This document shows positions 614 to 22,225 of a DNA stretch of 32,574 nucleotides, piece after piece. Both the position numbers and the translations under genes were made by a program. The DNA comes from Nitrosomonas sp. (GTDB lineage Bacteria; Pseudomonadota; Gammaproteobacteria; Burkholderiales; Nitrosomonadaceae). How positions within the stretch are numbered: the stretch's first letter is position 1; each line of letters opens with the position of its first letter. Where the stretch lies: assembly GCA_021774155.1 (NCBI GenBank), contig JAJFJH010000355.1:1-32574 (forward strand). Direction: 5' to 3'. The notes below the pieces were generated by a model. It saw nothing but the letters and a program-made list of their open reading frames with translations. It was not told the DNA's origin and did not search any database.

Positions 614-630
614 TGCGTCAATTTGCCACA
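614..630 (+). promoter_or_regulatory. Candidate dyad operator, site 1 (TGCGTCAATTTGCCACA)
   Basis: Shared with sites at 1843-1859, 12762-12778 (minus) and 16278-16294; each directly abuts a -35-like TTGNNN. Confidence 0.7.
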
Positions 631-658
631 TTGTTATCTCAGCTTTTTTCAGGATAAT
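631..658 (+). promoter_or_regulatory. Candidate sigma70-type promoter (TTGTTA-N16-GATAAT)
   Basis: Same architecture and 16-nt spacing as the promoters at 1860-1887 and 12734-12761 (minus). Confidence 0.65.
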
Positions 659-683
659 TACTACTACACAAAACAACGATCAA

Positions 684-755
684 GCCACCCTTGCTGCAAA
701 GCAAGTCCGGAAAGCCTTTGGGTCTCTTACTGAGATGGCCGGGTTGCCTCCTTTG
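684..755 (+). ncRNA. Structured 5' leader, candidate c-di-GMP-I (GEMM)-like riboswitch, copy 1
   Basis: CTTGCT-GCAA-AGCAAG hairpin with GNRA loop, then CGGAAAGCctttGGGTCTC...GAGATGGCCGGGTTGCC. The AAAGC-GG-CT and GCCGGGTTGCC blocks resemble the GEMM core. Two further copies in the window precede PEP-CTERM genes. Confidence 0.55.
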
Positions 756-919: not shown

Positions 920-1741
920 ATGCGAAAGCTAACATTTTCTATCAAGAAAAAAATACTAGTTCCAGCAACAATTATTTCTATTACCGCTTTACTCAGCACC
1001 AATGTATATGCAGCTGGTGCAACAGCAATGGATGATACAGCTCAACTCCATGCGGGTAGCTCTGCTACCTTCTCTAGTGCTGGCCAGAAAAGCTCTTATT
1101 CAGACAACCCAAGTCTTAGTAATTCCTCTTGGGCTCACACGGGCGCTTGGTTTACCTTCCAGAATCATGATGCAGGTGATGTCACTGTATCAGTACTCGG
1201 AGATGCGGGTTTTGTACCAGGCGTTTCAGTCTGGGCATCAGGTAACACAGAATTTGACGGTGGCACCGAGTCTTTCGGTGGAGAAGTCAGTTCGGCAGGA
1301 TGGGGCACACCGCACTCATTTAATTCAACCGGTGCTATGGGAGATTCTGGTACCTTATGGATGGCCAGCGGTCAGGGCGGCAATATCCAAGAAACTTTGG
1401 GTTATGCGGTATCCGGCCCTACACACCTGAATTCGACGACGGGTTGGGGCGAAGATATTGTTACTGGAGCACATGACGTAAGCCTTACAAACACCTATGA
1501 GAGTGGCGTAACTGGCAGCACTGGTGCAAACACTGCGTCACTTGCATTCGATGACTTGGCTGCGGGCTGGTATACCGTGTATGTTGGTGGCACTGATCAT
1601 GCATCGGCTGGCGGACAATATGACTTGGTTATTAGTGCAGTACCAGAAGCAGAAACCTGGGCTATGCTGCTAGCAGGTTTGGGCCTTATTGGCTGGCGCT
1701 TAAGAAAGCAGGAAAATGAGCCGAATATGCTTCCAGCTTAA
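920..1741 (+). CDS. PEP-CTERM sorting domain-containing secreted protein (paralog A)
   Basis: Start at ATG 920 with AAGGAGAG upstream rather than 875. Signal peptide. C-terminal VPEAETWAMLLAGLGLIGWRLRKQ exosortase-type tripartite signal. Confidence 0.9.
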   Translation: MRKLTFSIKKKILVPATIISITALLSTNVYAAGATAMDDTAQLHAGSSATFSSAGQKSSYSDNPSLSNSSWAHTGAWFTFQNHDAGDVTVSVLGDAGFVPGVSVWASGNTEFDGGTESFGGEVSSAGWGTPHSFNSTGAMGDSGTLWMASGQGGNIQETLGYAVSGPTHLNSTTGWGEDIVTGAHDVSLTNTYESGVTGSTGANTASLAFDDLAAGWYTVYVGGTDHASAGGQYDLVISAVPEAETWAMLLAGLGLIGWRLRKQENEPNMLPA

Positions 1742-1842: not shown

Positions 1843-1859
1843 TGCGACAATTTGACGCA
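1843..1859 (+). promoter_or_regulatory. Candidate dyad operator, site 2 (TGCGACAATTTGACGCA)
   Basis: Same 17-mer consensus as site 1, directly abutting the -35. Confidence 0.7.
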
Positions 1860-1887
1860 TTGTGTTTATAGTACTTCTTTATATAAT
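1860..1887 (+). promoter_or_regulatory. Candidate sigma70-type promoter (TTGTGT-N16-TATAAT)
   Basis: Consensus -10 TATAAT with 16-nt spacer. Confidence 0.7.
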
Positions 1888-1900
1888 ACCTATCTAGAAA

Positions 1901-1978
1901 ACCACCCTTGCTGCAAAGCAAGTCCGGAAAGCTGCGGGTCTCTACACACAAGATTGAGATGGCCGAGCTGCCTCCCCT
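1901..1978 (+). ncRNA. Structured 5' leader, candidate c-di-GMP-I (GEMM)-like riboswitch, copy 2
   Basis: CCACCCTTGCTGCAAAGCAAGTCCGGAAAGC identical to copy 1, then GGGTCTC-loop-GAGATGGCCGAGCTGCCTCC with a longer loop. Confidence 0.55.
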
Positions 1979-2138: not shown

Positions 2139-2978
2139 ATGCCTACACAATCAAACAGCAAGAAGACAAACGTGCTGATTGCAATAACAATTTCAACTAT
2201 TACTATGCTAGTCAATACAAATGCATATACGGCTGATGCGGTAGCAATTAATGCTTTTAATGACACTAATCACGTTCATTCAGGTGACGCTATAACCGTA
2301 ACTAGCTTTGCTCTGCCAAGTTCCTATTCAAACAATCCAAATTTCAATTACTCCGCCTGGGGTGACACTGGTAGTTGGTACACTTTCATGAATCATGACG
2401 TAACCGATGTTACTGTATCAGTTCTCGGAGATACGAATCTTGCGCCAGGTATTACAGTCTGGGCAACCGGTGGATCGGAATTTGACGGTGGAACGACAGC
2501 TTTCGGTTTTGAGACCAGTACAGCAGGATTTTTTTTAACACCAGCCTCTTTTAATGCAACAGGCGTCATTGGGAATACAGGTACTTTATGGATGGCCGAT
2601 GGAGCAGGCGGCAATACGATAGAAACCCTAGGTTATGCCGTTTCTGGCCCTACGCACCTTAATTCTACTGCTGCGACTGGCTGGGGTGAAAATATTGTTA
2701 CCGGCGCGCATGACGTGAGCCTCACAAATACTTTTGAAAATGGCGTAACGGGTAACACAACGGCAAACTCAGTGTCACTCTCGTTCAATAACTTGGCCTC
2801 GGGCTGGTATACCGTCTATGTTGGCGGAACGGATCATTCCCTAGTAGGTGGAGATTTTAATTTGGTCGTCAGCGCAGTACCGGAAACAGAAACCTGGGCC
2901 ATGCTGCTGGCAGGACTTGGACTTGTTGGCTGGCGTTTGAAGAAGCAACAAAAAGAATTGAATGTAGCAACAGCTTAG
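2139..2978 (+). CDS. PEP-CTERM sorting domain-containing secreted protein (paralog B)
   Basis: Strong full-length similarity to the 920-1741 product (LGYAVSGPTHLNST..GWGE.IVTGAHDVSLTNT). C-terminal VPETETWAMLLAGLGLVGWRLKKQ. Confidence 0.9.
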   Translation: MPTQSNSKKTNVLIAITISTITMLVNTNAYTADAVAINAFNDTNHVHSGDAITVTSFALPSSYSNNPNFNYSAWGDTGSWYTFMNHDVTDVTVSVLGDTNLAPGITVWATGGSEFDGGTTAFGFETSTAGFFLTPASFNATGVIGNTGTLWMADGAGGNTIETLGYAVSGPTHLNSTAATGWGENIVTGAHDVSLTNTFENGVTGNTTANSVSLSFNNLASGWYTVYVGGTDHSLVGGDFNLVVSAVPETETWAMLLAGLGLVGWRLKKQQKELNVATA

Positions 2979-11006: not shown

Positions 11007-11041
11007 ACAAGAGCCGCCGTAATCAAAGCGGAGGCTCTTGT
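11007..11041. terminator. Hairpin at the 3' end of the minus-strand PEP-CTERM gene
   Basis: ACAAGAGCCGCCG...CGGAGGCTCTTGT inverted repeat (one mismatch) directly after the stop codon; no clear U tract. Confidence 0.5.
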
Positions 11042-11586
11042 TACAGCCGCAGCCGCCGGCCCCGTGCTGCAAAACCAACTAGACACAATCCTACCAATAA
11101 CATCGCGTATGTTTCTGGTTCCGGAACAACGGACACAATAGTGATGCTTCCAGCATACCCACCACTTGTATGTCCAGAATTTAGCCCCCCCGTCAGGACA
11201 ATGTCATAATCGTGTCCGAACGATAATCCTGTAAAACCTGCCAAGCCTGCAACCCCGCCGGGAGTGAGGATTCCAGGTGCCACGAGTGTGGTAGTAGTAA
11301 CATCCCATAACTCTATGGAATCGAAATGAACATCGAATCCCACGGGACTGAAACTGAAATCGCTGACCACACTCAATGCGCCAGGGCCTAATATAGGAGG
11401 CGTTGCATTGAATGTAAAGTGGTCAACAAATGGCGATGTAACCGAATCATTCCCAAAAATGGCGCTAATGACAGGGCCAATTTCGATAAAATCTGAATCT
11501 ATAGGGCCGGGCGAGAGCGCGTTCGCTGCACCACTACTTAAACTGAGCCACATCACTATGGCTATTGTACTAATTGAGTTTTTCAT
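11041..11586 (-). CDS. PEP-CTERM sorting domain-containing secreted protein
   Basis: Signal peptide; C-terminal VPEPETYAMLLVGLCLVGFAARGRRLRL. Confidence 0.9.
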   Translation of the reverse strand: MKNSISTIAIVMWLSLSSGAANALSPGPIDSDFIEIGPVISAIFGNDSVTSPFVDHFTFNATPPILGPGALSVVSDFSFSPVGFDVHFDSIELWDVTTTTLVAPGILTPGGVAGLAGFTGLSFGHDYDIVLTGGLNSGHTSGGYAGSITIVSVVPEPETYAMLLVGLCLVGFAARGRRLRL

Positions 11587-11782: not shown

Positions 11783-12466
11783 TTAGTGATGAGTTCTGCG
11801 ACGATTAGCGGCAAAACTTACTAGCCCCAGTCCCACGAGTAACATGGCATATGTTTCTGGCTCAGGCACAGCTGGAATAGCGTCGTTAAATGTCACGTTA
11901 TCGACTTCGGCAAGCAAGTTTAGCAAACCAACACCTGCCGCTGGATCTTCACCTCGCCCTGGCAACTCAAACCAATACTCAACCAGATCGACATTACCAA
12001 AAGCTGCGCCAAAACTAACAGTCGTCCCAGCAGCCGCACTAGTCAGTATTGTTTCAGCAACTTGTGCGCCATCATCAAAACCTACGACATGTAAATTCGA
12101 GACCCCACCCGTGGTAACAGCTGTATCCAAAGTGGGCATGTCCCAACTTGTAAAGGCAAAATTGTCGCCCGATGTGGCTCTGAATATGGCACCACCCGCA
12201 TCCGCTTCTAGTTGCGAAACACGACTACCCGTACCCAAATTTAGTGCACCATGAATATGACTGGTAGGATTGGCTAGATCGTTGAAAGCGATTGAAGTCG
12301 TTTCGAAACCATCTTCAATATGGATTCCACCAAACCCACCAAATACCGCCGCTGGCATTAGAGGTGTATCAAAATCCATGATTACTGTATCTGCGTGCGC
12401 TTGACCCAGATGAAAAACGACGAGTAATGCTGACATGGCCAACATGGTATTTTTAATTTTAGGCAT
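11783..12466 (-). CDS. PEP-CTERM sorting domain-containing secreted protein (single copy of the MDFDTPLMPAAVFG module)
   Basis: TTGGAGATAAGCA-ATG start, signal peptide, module homologous to the two modules in the 8621-10297 product, C-terminal VPEPETYAMLLVGLGLVSFAANRRR. Confidence 0.92.
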   Translation of the reverse strand: MPKIKNTMLAMSALLVVFHLGQAHADTVIMDFDTPLMPAAVFGGFGGIHIEDGFETTSIAFNDLANPTSHIHGALNLGTGSRVSQLEADAGGAIFRATSGDNFAFTSWDMPTLDTAVTTGGVSNLHVVGFDDGAQVAETILTSAAAGTTVSFGAAFGNVDLVEYWFELPGRGEDPAAGVGLLNLLAEVDNVTFNDAIPAVPEPETYAMLLVGLGLVSFAANRRRTHH

Positions 12467-12643
12467 TGCTTATCTCCAAAAAAATAGAAAGATCACTTAT
12501 ACAGCACTGTATTTTAAAGCAGTGAAGCATTAATGCCCGCCTTAGACACGACACCGTACATGTAATGTAACGTAGCGATCTGAAATCTAGCCAAAATAAT
12601 TCTTCTTTCTTTGATTTCAGATACTCCCTATTAATTATCCTGG

Positions 12644-12725
12644 GAGGCAACCCGGCCGTCTCGCAAACCAACTAACGAGACCCAAAGCTTTCTGTGCCTG
12701 CCTTACGACAAACGTAGCTTTCGCA
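12644..12725 (-). ncRNA. Structured 5' leader, candidate c-di-GMP-I (GEMM)-like riboswitch, copy 3
   Basis: Minus strand: CAGAAAGCtttGGGTCTC-loop-GAGACGGCCGGGTTGCCTCC, same core as copies 1 and 2 with a divergent 5' hairpin. Confidence 0.55.
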
Positions 12726-12733
12726 ACTAGTAC

Positions 12734-12761
12734 ATTATCCTAAATTACATATTAATATCAA
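12734..12761 (-). promoter_or_regulatory. Candidate sigma70-type promoter (TTGATA-N16-GATAAT)
   Basis: Same spacing as the two plus-strand PEP-CTERM promoters. Confidence 0.65.
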
Positions 12762-12778
12762 TGTGACAAATTGCCGCA
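12762..12778 (-). promoter_or_regulatory. Candidate dyad operator, site 3 (TGCGGCAATTTGTCACA on the minus strand)
   Basis: Matches the 17-mer consensus and abuts the -35. Confidence 0.7.
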
Positions 12779-16277: not shown

Positions 16278-16294
16278 CGCGACATATTGTCGCA
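16278..16294 (+). promoter_or_regulatory. Candidate dyad operator, site 4 (CGCGACATATTGTCGCA)
   Basis: Perfect GCGACA-TAT-TGTCGC palindrome in the same register to the -35 as sites 1-3. Confidence 0.72.
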
Positions 16295-16323
16295 TTGAAA
16301 TGTGATCATCAAACAGAGATAAT
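16295..16323 (+). promoter_or_regulatory. Candidate sigma70-type promoter of the epsD-epsI operon (TTGAAA-N17-GATAAT)
   Basis: -35/-10 match directly downstream of operator site 4. Confidence 0.62.
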
Positions 16324-16496: not shown

Positions 16497-17465
16497 ATGA
16501 ATAAAAAAAACTTTGTAATTTACAAGCATATTTTGCTTGGCGCTTTAGTATTGGGCTCTGTCGTAGTTTTGTCTGCATGTGGCAGTGAACAAATAGACAA
16601 GGAGCCTGGCCAGGCACTGGTTAGCGTGGATGGTGAAGAGATAACCATGCTACAACTAAATGATGAATTGAGTCGTACCAAAATACAACCTGAGCAGCTT
16701 GAAAGTGTAAAAAAACAATTACTGGAATCGATAGTCGACCGCCAATTAATGAAGGCAGAAGCACAACGCAATAAACTTGATCGCACGCCTCATGTCATGC
16801 AAGCTATCACACGTGCTAAAACACAAATTATTGCGCAAGCGTATTTACAAAACATTGCCAGTGAGATTGAAAATCCCACTCCTGTTGAAGTTAATGAATT
16901 TTACCAAGGCCATCCAGAATTTTTTGCTCAACGTAAAAAGTATAACTTAAGCATCGTTCGCTTTGCTAAGAATGAATATAACGATGAACTAAAGTCAGCA
17001 TTTAGTGCTGCAAAATCACTGAATGATGTCACGAAGTGGTTAGATAAACATAATATTCCATATTTACATGAAGAGATAACACGCGATACAGCTCAAATGC
17101 CGCGAGAAATGAGCGCAAGGCTACAGCAACAGAAAAAAGGCGATATGTTTCACATCAGTGAGAATGAAGACGATTTACTGGTCTCTATTGATGTTATCGA
17201 GGAACAACCGATTTCCGCTGAAGTAGCTAAGGCACGTATTGAAATGCATTTACTCAACAACAAGCGCCGCGAAACCGCTGAAGCAGCAATAGCGCGCTTG
17301 CGTTCTTCTGCAGAAATTAAGTATTTTCACGCTTCCGCAGACAGTGTTGACCAAGCCACTCCCCAACCAACAACTCAGATAACGACTGAAACTGACGACA
17401 ATAATCCATCGGGCGATTTACTGCATAATGAATCAATCGAACGTGGCATGACAGGGCTAAAGTAA
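16497..17465 (+). CDS. epsD: EpsD family peptidyl-prolyl cis-trans isomerase lipoprotein
   Basis: Lipobox LSAC; VDGEEITMLQLNDELSRTKIQPEQ..KKQLLESIVDRQLMKAEAQRNKLDRTPHVMQAI; position directly before epsE. Confidence 0.88.
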   Translation: MNKKNFVIYKHILLGALVLGSVVVLSACGSEQIDKEPGQALVSVDGEEITMLQLNDELSRTKIQPEQLESVKKQLLESIVDRQLMKAEAQRNKLDRTPHVMQAITRAKTQIIAQAYLQNIASEIENPTPVEVNEFYQGHPEFFAQRKKYNLSIVRFAKNEYNDELKSAFSAAKSLNDVTKWLDKHNIPYLHEEITRDTAQMPREMSARLQQQKKGDMFHISENEDDLLVSIDVIEEQPISAEVAKARIEMHLLNNKRRETAEAAIARLRSSAEIKYFHASADSVDQATPQPTTQITTETDDNNPSGDLLHNESIERGMTGLK

Positions 17466-20617: not shown

Positions 20618-21511
20618 ATGTCTTTTATCATAACCAAATCACTTCGCCCGAAATCCATGATGTTTACATGGTTGCCTGTTCTGTTGGGCCTGTTAGCAAT
20701 GTATGTCCCTACTTTCTATGATCTCGCAAATGGATTATGGACTGAAGACGAGCAGATGCACGGCCCCATCATTCTTGGACTTTCTCTTTGGCTTATTTAT
20801 CGTAAATGGCCGCGTATGATTGAACTTAGCGAAGGCAAGCCTTCTTCTCGCATCGGCTGGTTTATTTCTGTTATCGGGTTAGCACTTTATATTATTGGTC
20901 GTTCTCAGCAAATCCTTATATTTGAGATTGGGTCCTTTATTTTGATGCTAGCAGCCATTCTATTGATCAAGCGTGGGCATACGGCACTTAAGGTCTTATG
21001 GTTTCCTTTCTTCTTTATGCTGTTTATGATTCCGCTGCCCGGGCCAGTGGTCAGTATCCTTACCATGCCTATGAAAATGGCTGTGTCCTACGTTGCTGAA
21101 CAGATTTTGTTTTGGGCAGAATATCCCATCGCCCGTAATGGCGTCATCTTACAAATTGGGCAATATCAACTACTTGTTGCAGATGCTTGTGCTGGACTAC
21201 AAACGCTTTTGACTTTAGAAGCGCTAGGATTGTTTTATCTGAACCTAGTTCAGCATACCTCAGCTTTACGTAATATCACGCTAGCAATCCTAATCATACC
21301 CATTTCTTTCACCGCCAATGTCATTCGCGTCATTGTACTGACGCTGATTACTTATCATTATGGTGATGCGGCAGGACAAGGATTCATGCACGGTTTTGCC
21401 GGTATGGTCTTATTTATTAGCGCTCTAATTTTAATTCTAAGCGTAGATTCAGTTTTACAGTTCTTTTTTAAAACACAACCTATAAATCCTGTTTCTCCCG
21501 CAAGAATTTAA
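20618..21511 (+). CDS. xrtB: Exosortase B
   Basis: Multi-TM protein with conserved catalytic Cys (VADACAGLQTL), Arg (TANVIRV) and His (GFMHGFAGM). Confidence 0.95.
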   Translation: MSFIITKSLRPKSMMFTWLPVLLGLLAMYVPTFYDLANGLWTEDEQMHGPIILGLSLWLIYRKWPRMIELSEGKPSSRIGWFISVIGLALYIIGRSQQILIFEIGSFILMLAAILLIKRGHTALKVLWFPFFFMLFMIPLPGPVVSILTMPMKMAVSYVAEQILFWAEYPIARNGVILQIGQYQLLVADACAGLQTLLTLEALGLFYLNLVQHTSALRNITLAILIIPISFTANVIRVIVLTLITYHYGDAAGQGFMHGFAGMVLFISALILILSVDSVLQFFFKTQPINPVSPARI

Positions 21512-21538: not shown

Positions 21539-22225
21539 ATGAAAAAGCCATTAATCGCAAGTATTACGCTGAGCATACTCATGATATCCACCGCTGCTTT
21601 TACCACGGTGGTAACACCAACCAATAAAATTGCGGATCAGCGGAATATACTGAATTTAGAAACACTGATCCCATCAACTTTTGATGATTGGAAAATCGAC
21701 AAATCGATCATACCGCTGCAAGTTGATTCGAAAACTCAGGCCCAACTTGATAAATTGTACAATCAAACGCTGGCAAGAACTTATGTTAACTCACAAGGTG
21801 TACGTGTGATGCTTTCAATTGCTTATGGCGGAGATCAAAGCGATCAACTGGCATTACATAAACCAGAAGTTTGTTACCTGGCACAAGGATTCGCCATAAA
21901 GAAAAATATTGCTAGTGAGCTTTCCACGCAATATGGCAATTTGCCGAGTAGGCGCATACTAGCTGTTCGAGGCAACCGTAACGAACCAATTACTTATTGG
22001 GTCACCGTGGGTGACAAGGCTGTTTTATCCGGCATCAATCAAAAATTACAACAAATTCGCTACGGTTTATCTGGAAATGTACCTGATGGTATGTTGGTCC
22101 GTGTATCTACTATCGGTATTAACGAGGATCAATCCTATCAGCTACATGAAGCTTTTATCCAGAATATGTTGTCAGCAATTGAAGCCAAAGAGCGTGCCCG
22201 GCTAATAGGAGTTTTGGAAACATAA
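21539..22225 (+). CDS. epsI: Exosortase-associated protein EpsI
   Basis: IPSTFDDWKID...; HKPEVCYLAQGFAI motif typical of EpsI; directly after xrtB. Confidence 0.92.
   Translation: MKKPLIASITLSILMISTAAFTTVVTPTNKIADQRNILNLETLIPSTFDDWKIDKSIIPLQVDSKTQAQLDKLYNQTLARTYVNSQGVRVMLSIAYGGDQSDQLALHKPEVCYLAQGFAIKKNIASELSTQYGNLPSRRILAVRGNRNEPITYWVTVGDKAVLSGINQKLQQIRYGLSGNVPDGMLVRVSTIGINEDQSYQLHEAFIQNMLSAIEAKERARLIGVLET

Follow-up and report, generated by a model that had tools for sequence, protein, structure and literature searches.

A dyad fused to the -35 box as a putative RegB/RegA-type operator of matrix and metal-related genes in Nitrosomonas

A regulatory element described upstream of PEP-CTERM genes is the PrsK/PrsR sigma54 box, which has -24(GG)/-12(GC) elements and a distant motif, and Haft et al. 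(2006) noted that more PEP-CTERM regulators and DNA motifs were still to be found (PMC1569441). For the RegB/RegA two-component systems (PrrB/PrrA, ActS/ActR, RegS/RegR), the sites of the response regulator have been described as degenerate (PMC4263372; PMC5506826). In Acidithiobacillus, no RegA motif was found and RegA binds mostly upstream of the -35 box (PMC5506826), while a ChIP-seq table for R. capsulatus RegA lists 33 sequences, including GTGACAATTTGTCCC (cydA) and GCGTCAATATGGCGC (PMC5359404). The quinone motif of RegB has been defined as GGxxNPF (PMC8191878), and Cys156 of R. capsulatus RegA (a group 1 RegA) is subject to copper-driven dimerisation/disulfide control (PMC9147068). Here we describe a Nitrosomonas locus in which a dyad abuts the -35 box ahead of PEP-CTERM and EPS genes. 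We think it probable that XrtB-sorted matrix proteins are controlled by a RegB/RegA operator at -35 and a c-di-GMP-I riboswitch at about +1, and that the same operator coordinates copper and iron acquisition.

Dyad promoters and riboswitch leaders in the window

The window, meaning the whole stretch of 32,574 nucleotides that was analysed, is contig C285 of a fragmented 3.88 Mb assembly (475 contigs, 96% complete). Its relevant features are as follows.

614..630, plus strand: putative dyad operator TGCGTCAATTTGCCACA (matrix 24.1 bits)
631..658, plus strand: sigma70-type promoter TTGTTA-16 nt-GATAAT abutting the dyad (sequence; register statistics)
674..751, plus strand: c-di-GMP-I (GEMM) aptamer, starting 43 nt past the dyad (Rfam RF01051, 40.5 bits, cut-off 35)
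920..1741, plus strand: PEP-CTERM-type protein gene 1 (NF038126, 50.6 bits, cut-off 50)
1843..1859, plus strand: putative dyad operator TGCGACAATTTGACGCA (matrix 26.1 bits)
1860..1887, plus strand: promoter TTGTGT-16 nt-TATAAT (sequence; register statistics)
1891..1975, plus strand: c-di-GMP-I aptamer (RF01051, 45.1 bits)
2139..2978, plus strand: PEP-CTERM-type protein gene 2 (NF038126, 46.3 bits, under the cut-off of 50; C-terminal PExETWAMLLAGLGL)
11041-11586: fourth PEP-CTERM gene, after gene 3 (NF038126, 73.2 bits)
11783..12466, minus strand: PEP-CTERM protein gene 3 (TIGR02595, 20.4 bits, cut-off 16)
12643..12728, minus strand: c-di-GMP-I aptamer (RF01051, 38.9 bits)
12734..12761, minus strand: promoter TTGATA-16 nt-GATAAT (sequence; register statistics)
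12762..12778, minus strand: putative dyad operator TGCGGCAATTTGTCACA (matrix 26.8 bits)
16278..16294, plus strand: putative dyad operator CGCGACATATTGTCGCA, upstream of the epsD operon (kept in four related species)
16295..16323, plus strand: promoter TTGAAA-17 nt-GATAAT (sequence; kept in four related species)
16497..17465, plus strand: epsD, which opens the epsDEFG-xrtB-epsI block (TIGR02925, 160.3 bits, cut-off 108.9)
20618..21511, plus strand: xrtB, exosortase B (TIGR03113, 422.8 bits, cut-off 275)
21539..22225, plus strand: epsI, B-type (NF045609, 293.4 bits, cut-off 220)

The four dyads share the consensus TGYGNCA-NNN-TGNCRCA and each abuts a TTGNNN -35 box, with -35/-10 spacers of 16, 16, 16, and 17 nt and -10 boxes GATAAT, TATAAT, GATAAT, and GATAAT (sites 614, 1843, 12778 on the minus strand, and 16278, respectively). 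The pattern TGCGNCAATTTGNCRCATTG had three perfect matches in the window, the 16278 site being the fourth with three mismatches; 0.15 sites were expected, and none of 100 shuffles reached four or more. A preliminary description of this DNA had reported a recurrent dyad fused to the -35 box, followed after 16-17 nt by [T/G]ATAAT, with PEP-CTERM genes behind three copies and epsD-xrtB-epsI behind the fourth. Every site, promoter layout, and downstream gene was located as it had been given, and its proposal of a dimeric regulator touching RNA polymerase is consistent with a dyad fixed against a sigma70-type -35 box.

Both the XrtB exosortase and EpsI-B were over their profile cut-offs, which identified an XrtB/PEP-CTERM system. 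Among the three PEP-CTERM-type proteins led by a dyad, one passed TIGR02595, one passed NF038126, and one fell just short of the latter (46.3 bits). The epsD dyad, together with TTGAAA and GATAAT, was present in the window genome and four relatives (G072, G056, G063, G002), among which the spacers had diverged. These five genomes accounted for all in-register dyads at the 30 epsD promoters that were read; the remaining 25 carried none in register and scored at most 10.0 bits, counting as dyad-less the L241 promoter (10.0 bits), which has no promoter elements.

All three window aptamers exceeded the RF01051 gathering score of 35 (38.9-45.1 bits), and in five species a total of 12 GEMM aptamers had a dyad 31-55 nt upstream, three of them in the window and nine in four related species. 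A PEP-CTERM ORF directly followed 10 of these 12, and other ORFs followed the remaining two (L338:1136, L336:5255). The 34 other GEMM leaders that were scored, which served as internal controls, had no dyad (2.6 bits or less). At least one of these (L264) has a PEP-CTERM protein behind it as well, and for several others the downstream reading frames run off the fetched piece. At the three window GEMM promoters, transcription is predicted to start at or next to the first aptamer bases, so that c-di-GMP would come into play afterwards, on that one message. This suggests two-input control, with initiation responding to redox state and the RNA to c-di-GMP.

Two further observations concern the riboswitches of the genus. 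In most PEP-CTERM GEMM leaders, the 3' end of the aptamer (CCTCC) is followed by a tract AATGATGGGGAGT..TGA, located at 752-775 and 1976-1995 of the window and in the GEMM leaders of L336-L342; it is complementary to CCTCC, can encode a peptide of 4-6 residues, and is a candidate expression platform. Other Nitrosomonas loci (L261-L290, L343, L344) contain high-scoring, often tandem GEMM-I/GGC aptamers without a dyad, ahead of proteins of 380-450 aa, many of which end in CP[TS]..SSC. These aptamers would form a separate c-di-GMP regulon.

Distribution of the dyad and the RegB/RegA candidate

Genome sites were found by pattern search and from the stretches around the matches. With up to one mismatch, TGYGNCAWNWTGNCRCA had 29 sites in the genome against two for a reversed control pattern, and when the spacer was set to WWW and no mismatch was allowed, there were 18 against zero. 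Dyad matches were found in all 73 genomes of the genus that were searched (1-21 each, control 0 or 1); these genomes are not independent of each other, though divergence is seen in their flanks and spacers. Elsewhere in the order (Burkholderiales), most genomes had zero sites and many had few or none. A relaxed NNN spacer gave many matches in G+C-rich genomes across the order, near control level, and we therefore claim no operators there. The preliminary description had named, as support for its proposal, an enrichment of matches in this genome and its relatives ahead of other PEP-CTERM, GEMM-led, or eps genes; the matches stood far above control rather than at background, and the enrichment ahead of these genes was supported.

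The 18 exact sites, which were found without using the -35 box, served as the sample for the register. TT lay immediately 3' of the dyad in 16 of 18, compared to 1-11 for the remaining offsets. Hexamers agreeing with TATAAT at five or more of six positions lay at offset 22-23 in 13 of 18 (0-2 elsewhere). These statistics indicate that the dyad belongs to a sigma70-type promoter of fixed layout, with its centre about 44 bp ahead of the expected transcription start.

Clustering of all the genes around exact dyads in unrelated genomes brought out two recurring neighbours, a sensor kinase and a short response regulator whose HTH is of the Fis type. Among some 58 loci outside Nitrosomonadaceae, about 14 had regBA within about 8 kb of a dyad, compared to a chance expectation of about 0.15 (8 kb in about 3 Mb). 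RegA was near the dyad in ten of these (L087, L089, L097, L116, L138, L151, L163, L178, L186, L191) and RegB stood at the edge of the piece in four more (L125, L131, L162, L181); three loci whose response regulator read as OmpR-type (L099, L149, L195) were left out of the count. The neighbourhoods came from Porticoccaceae, Psychrosphaera, Thiomicrorhabdus, Mariprofundus, and Oceanisphaera. Together with the comparisons below, these data provide several largely independent lines that make it very likely that in Nitrosomonas a redox two-component system of the RegB/RegA type (PrrBA/ActSR) uses the dyad as its operator, with RegA as the predicted binding protein.

The window genome encodes its regBA pair outside the window, on the minus strand of contig C8 (5957-7779), as an adjacent Fis-HTH response regulator and RegB-type kinase (L041, 1958-2521 and 2521-3780). 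Their best families were ActR_PrrA and ActS_PrrB; RegA reached 200.7 of 250 bits and RegB 267 of 350, both under the NCBIfam cut-offs (NF033791 / NF033792), and we therefore call the proteins RegB/RegA-type rather than equivalog members. A regB gene was found in 72 of the 73 genomes of the genus. Of 67 readable Nitrosomonas regB promoters, 60 had a dyad scoring 14-29 bits, which exceeds the top score among 50 shuffles; it mostly stands 57-90 bp 5' of the start codon and keeps the same register (TAGCCA-17-TAATGT). The other seven had none, and in the window genome itself the dyad close ahead of regB is weak (14.1 bits).

The HTH of Nitrosomonas RegA (NMHRRTLQRKLAK) and that of Rhodobacter PrrA (NMHRRTLQRILAK, 1umq) have nearly identical recognition helices, with MHRRTLQR nearly invariant among 12 RegA proteins. 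The cysteines of Nitrosomonas RegA lie in the receiver part, with none in the HTH region and no equivalent of Cys156. RegB contains the quinone motif GGSTNPF at 96-102, the H-box HELGTP at 215, and Cys255 at H+40, which we take to be the equivalent of the cytosolic redox cysteine Cys265. From the quinone motif, the H-box, and a cysteine 40 residues on, a quinone/redox input to RegB appears likely, judging by the published motif (PMC8191878).

Scored on the core of the Nitrosomonas matrix, the 33 ChIP sequences of R. capsulatus RegA averaged -3.1 compared to -34.0 +/- 1.8 for shuffles (z = 16.8). They fit in the same register only, every other register averaging -22 or lower, and the dyad carries the GCG-type inverted repeat of a RegA operator in register with them. 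Unlike the degenerate RegA sites of the literature, the putative Nitrosomonas operator is regular.

Metal-related genes, proposed mechanism and alternatives

The preliminary description had proposed an EPS/PEP-CTERM regulon. Those genes are included, but the definition was too narrow, as metal-uptake and copper-type genes lie behind the majority of sites in the genus, and the EPS/PEP-CTERM set is one arm of a wider set. Contig C178 overlaps positions 1-141 of the window (L017:1-141) at 100% identity and places galE and galU directly upstream, with a dyad promoter facing galU. Elsewhere in the genome, dyads precede another PEP-CTERM gene, TonB receptors, and multicopper-oxidase-domain genes. 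Four fecI-fecR sigma/anti-sigma operons have a dyad promoter (L020:1029, L031:682, L034:4852, L035:1877; contigs C282, C165, C322, and C399 of G000), which presumably places a RegA input above several iron-siderophore circuits. A TlpA-DUF4266-DUF3570 cluster carries five dyads (contig C180; L028:345-7280). In other genomes, dyads stand ahead of MbnP copper proteins (TIGR04052, 245.9 bits) and of TonB proteins that resemble copper receptors.

Several observations accompany these loci. The repeated secreted proteins behind dyads have a predicted mature N-terminal histidine (AHTRLE.., AHTAG.., AHEGEPN..) and no Pfam or NCBIfam match. They adjoin TlpA, DUF4266, and DUF3570 genes in L028 and in many Nitrosomonas loci (L064, L077, L088, L106, L154, L194), and the set looks like an undescribed copper-related module. 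The MbnP-type dyad loci (L099, L151, L168, L186, L199) come from Psychrosphaera, Gayadomonas, and a gammaproteobacterium; regBA lies a few kb from the dyad in L151 and L186, which links RegBA to copper handling outside Nitrosomonas. Typical Nitrosomonas dyads also occur on short metagenome contigs filed under Chlamydiae, Phycisphaerae, and Saprospiraceae (L083, L130, L150), which are probably mis-binned Nitrosomonas DNA.

In the mechanism that we propose, the quinone pool or another redox cue would activate RegB, and a RegA dimer would bind the palindrome, which is centred some 44 bp before the start and adjoins a poor -35 box, and would help sigma70 RNA polymerase to use that box. Transcripts from the three PEP-CTERM promoters would start at the c-di-GMP-I aptamer or right beside it, so that redox state would gate initiation and c-di-GMP would then gate the message. 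At epsD, the operator would act alone, without the riboswitch layer, and the dyad ahead of regBA itself would be an autoregulatory site.

A role for RegA as a repressor or dual regulator that blocks RNA polymerase in one redox state is unlikely, though it would suit a dyad that abuts the -35 box, and in the R. capsulatus RegA table activated and repressed genes share the motif (PMC5359404). Against it, the promoters combine good -10 boxes with -35 boxes that are poor after TT[G/C], and the dyad sits 5' of the hexamers without covering them. This layout favours an activator, and RegA of Acidithiobacillus likewise binds mostly upstream of the -35 box (PMC5506826). RegA most likely acts as an activator at the dyad promoters.

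The regulators named in the preliminary description fared less well than its operator on a sigma70-type -35 box, which stood. The half-sites TGYGA/TCRCA resemble those of CRP and the genome encodes seven CRP/FNR proteins, but the half-site spacing is N7 rather than the N6 of CRP (TGTGA-N6-TCACA type), no dyad stands at any of the seven loci for these proteins (8.1 bits at most), and CRP genes do not recur beside dyads in other genomes. As the RegA match accounts for the motif base by base, an activator of the CRP/FNR family is highly improbable. The LuxR-type EpsA of XrtB systems is scarcely credible as the binding protein: an XrtB/EpsD/EpsE/EpsI-B/EpsL locus is the right kind for EpsA, but no TIGR03020 match exceeded the cut-off in the 96%-complete assembly (best 46.8 compared to 170 bits, HTH only), and most dyads, here and in other genomes, stand ahead of genes unrelated to XrtB. 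Several copies lie close together, five of them in contig C180, as a repeat or mobile sequence that is no operator might; the chance of this is negligible, since flanks differ between copies, the sites keep a fixed register to -35/-10 and lie ahead of genes, and the epsD dyad is kept in four other species despite diverged spacers.

Relation to known systems

With RegA as a named, testable regulator, the dyad supplies for the XrtB branch a motif of the kind that Haft et al. (PMC1569441) had foreseen, and the operator is regular enough for the RegA regulon of Nitrosomonas to be predicted by pattern search. If our reading is true, a single regulon of ammonia oxidisers joins respiratory state with metal uptake and matrix building, and aggregation in these organisms may thereby be linked to their redox state and metal supply; this would be relevant to nitrifying wastewater biofilms.

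The dyad promoters resemble the PrsK/PrsR system in having a common upstream element for PEP-CTERM genes and long leaders. They differ in having -35/-10 boxes in fixed register with an adjacent dyad, an XrtB rather than XrtA context, and a RegA-type rather than NtrC-type response regulator as the candidate. As with other c-di-GMP-I riboswitches, aptamers over the Rfam gathering score lie in the 5' leaders of surface or matrix genes, but the promoters of the 12 dyad-led leaders add a putative redox operator 31-55 nt upstream, for two inputs on one message; the operator is missing from those other GEMMs of the genus that we read. Control of EPS genes where c-di-GMP matters is shared with BerA/Bcam1349 (CRP/FNR, c-di-GMP; Burkholderia EPS), for which we found no published box in open papers. 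That regulator belongs to another protein family; here, RegA is the most likely regulator at the DNA, and c-di-GMP would act on RNA.

The closest likeness is to RegB/RegA, in the adjacent regB-regA genes, the quinone motif, the redox cysteine, the near-identical recognition helix, a GCGNC-N5-GNCGC core in the same register, and the autoregulatory site. Compared to R. capsulatus RegA, the Nitrosomonas protein is without the Cys156 equivalent, and the pair scores under the NCBIfam curated cut-offs. Compared to RegB/RegA elsewhere, the putative operator in Nitrosomonas is far more regular and is locked to the -35 box, and its predicted targets are matrix proteins, EPS, FecIR/TonB, and copper-type genes.
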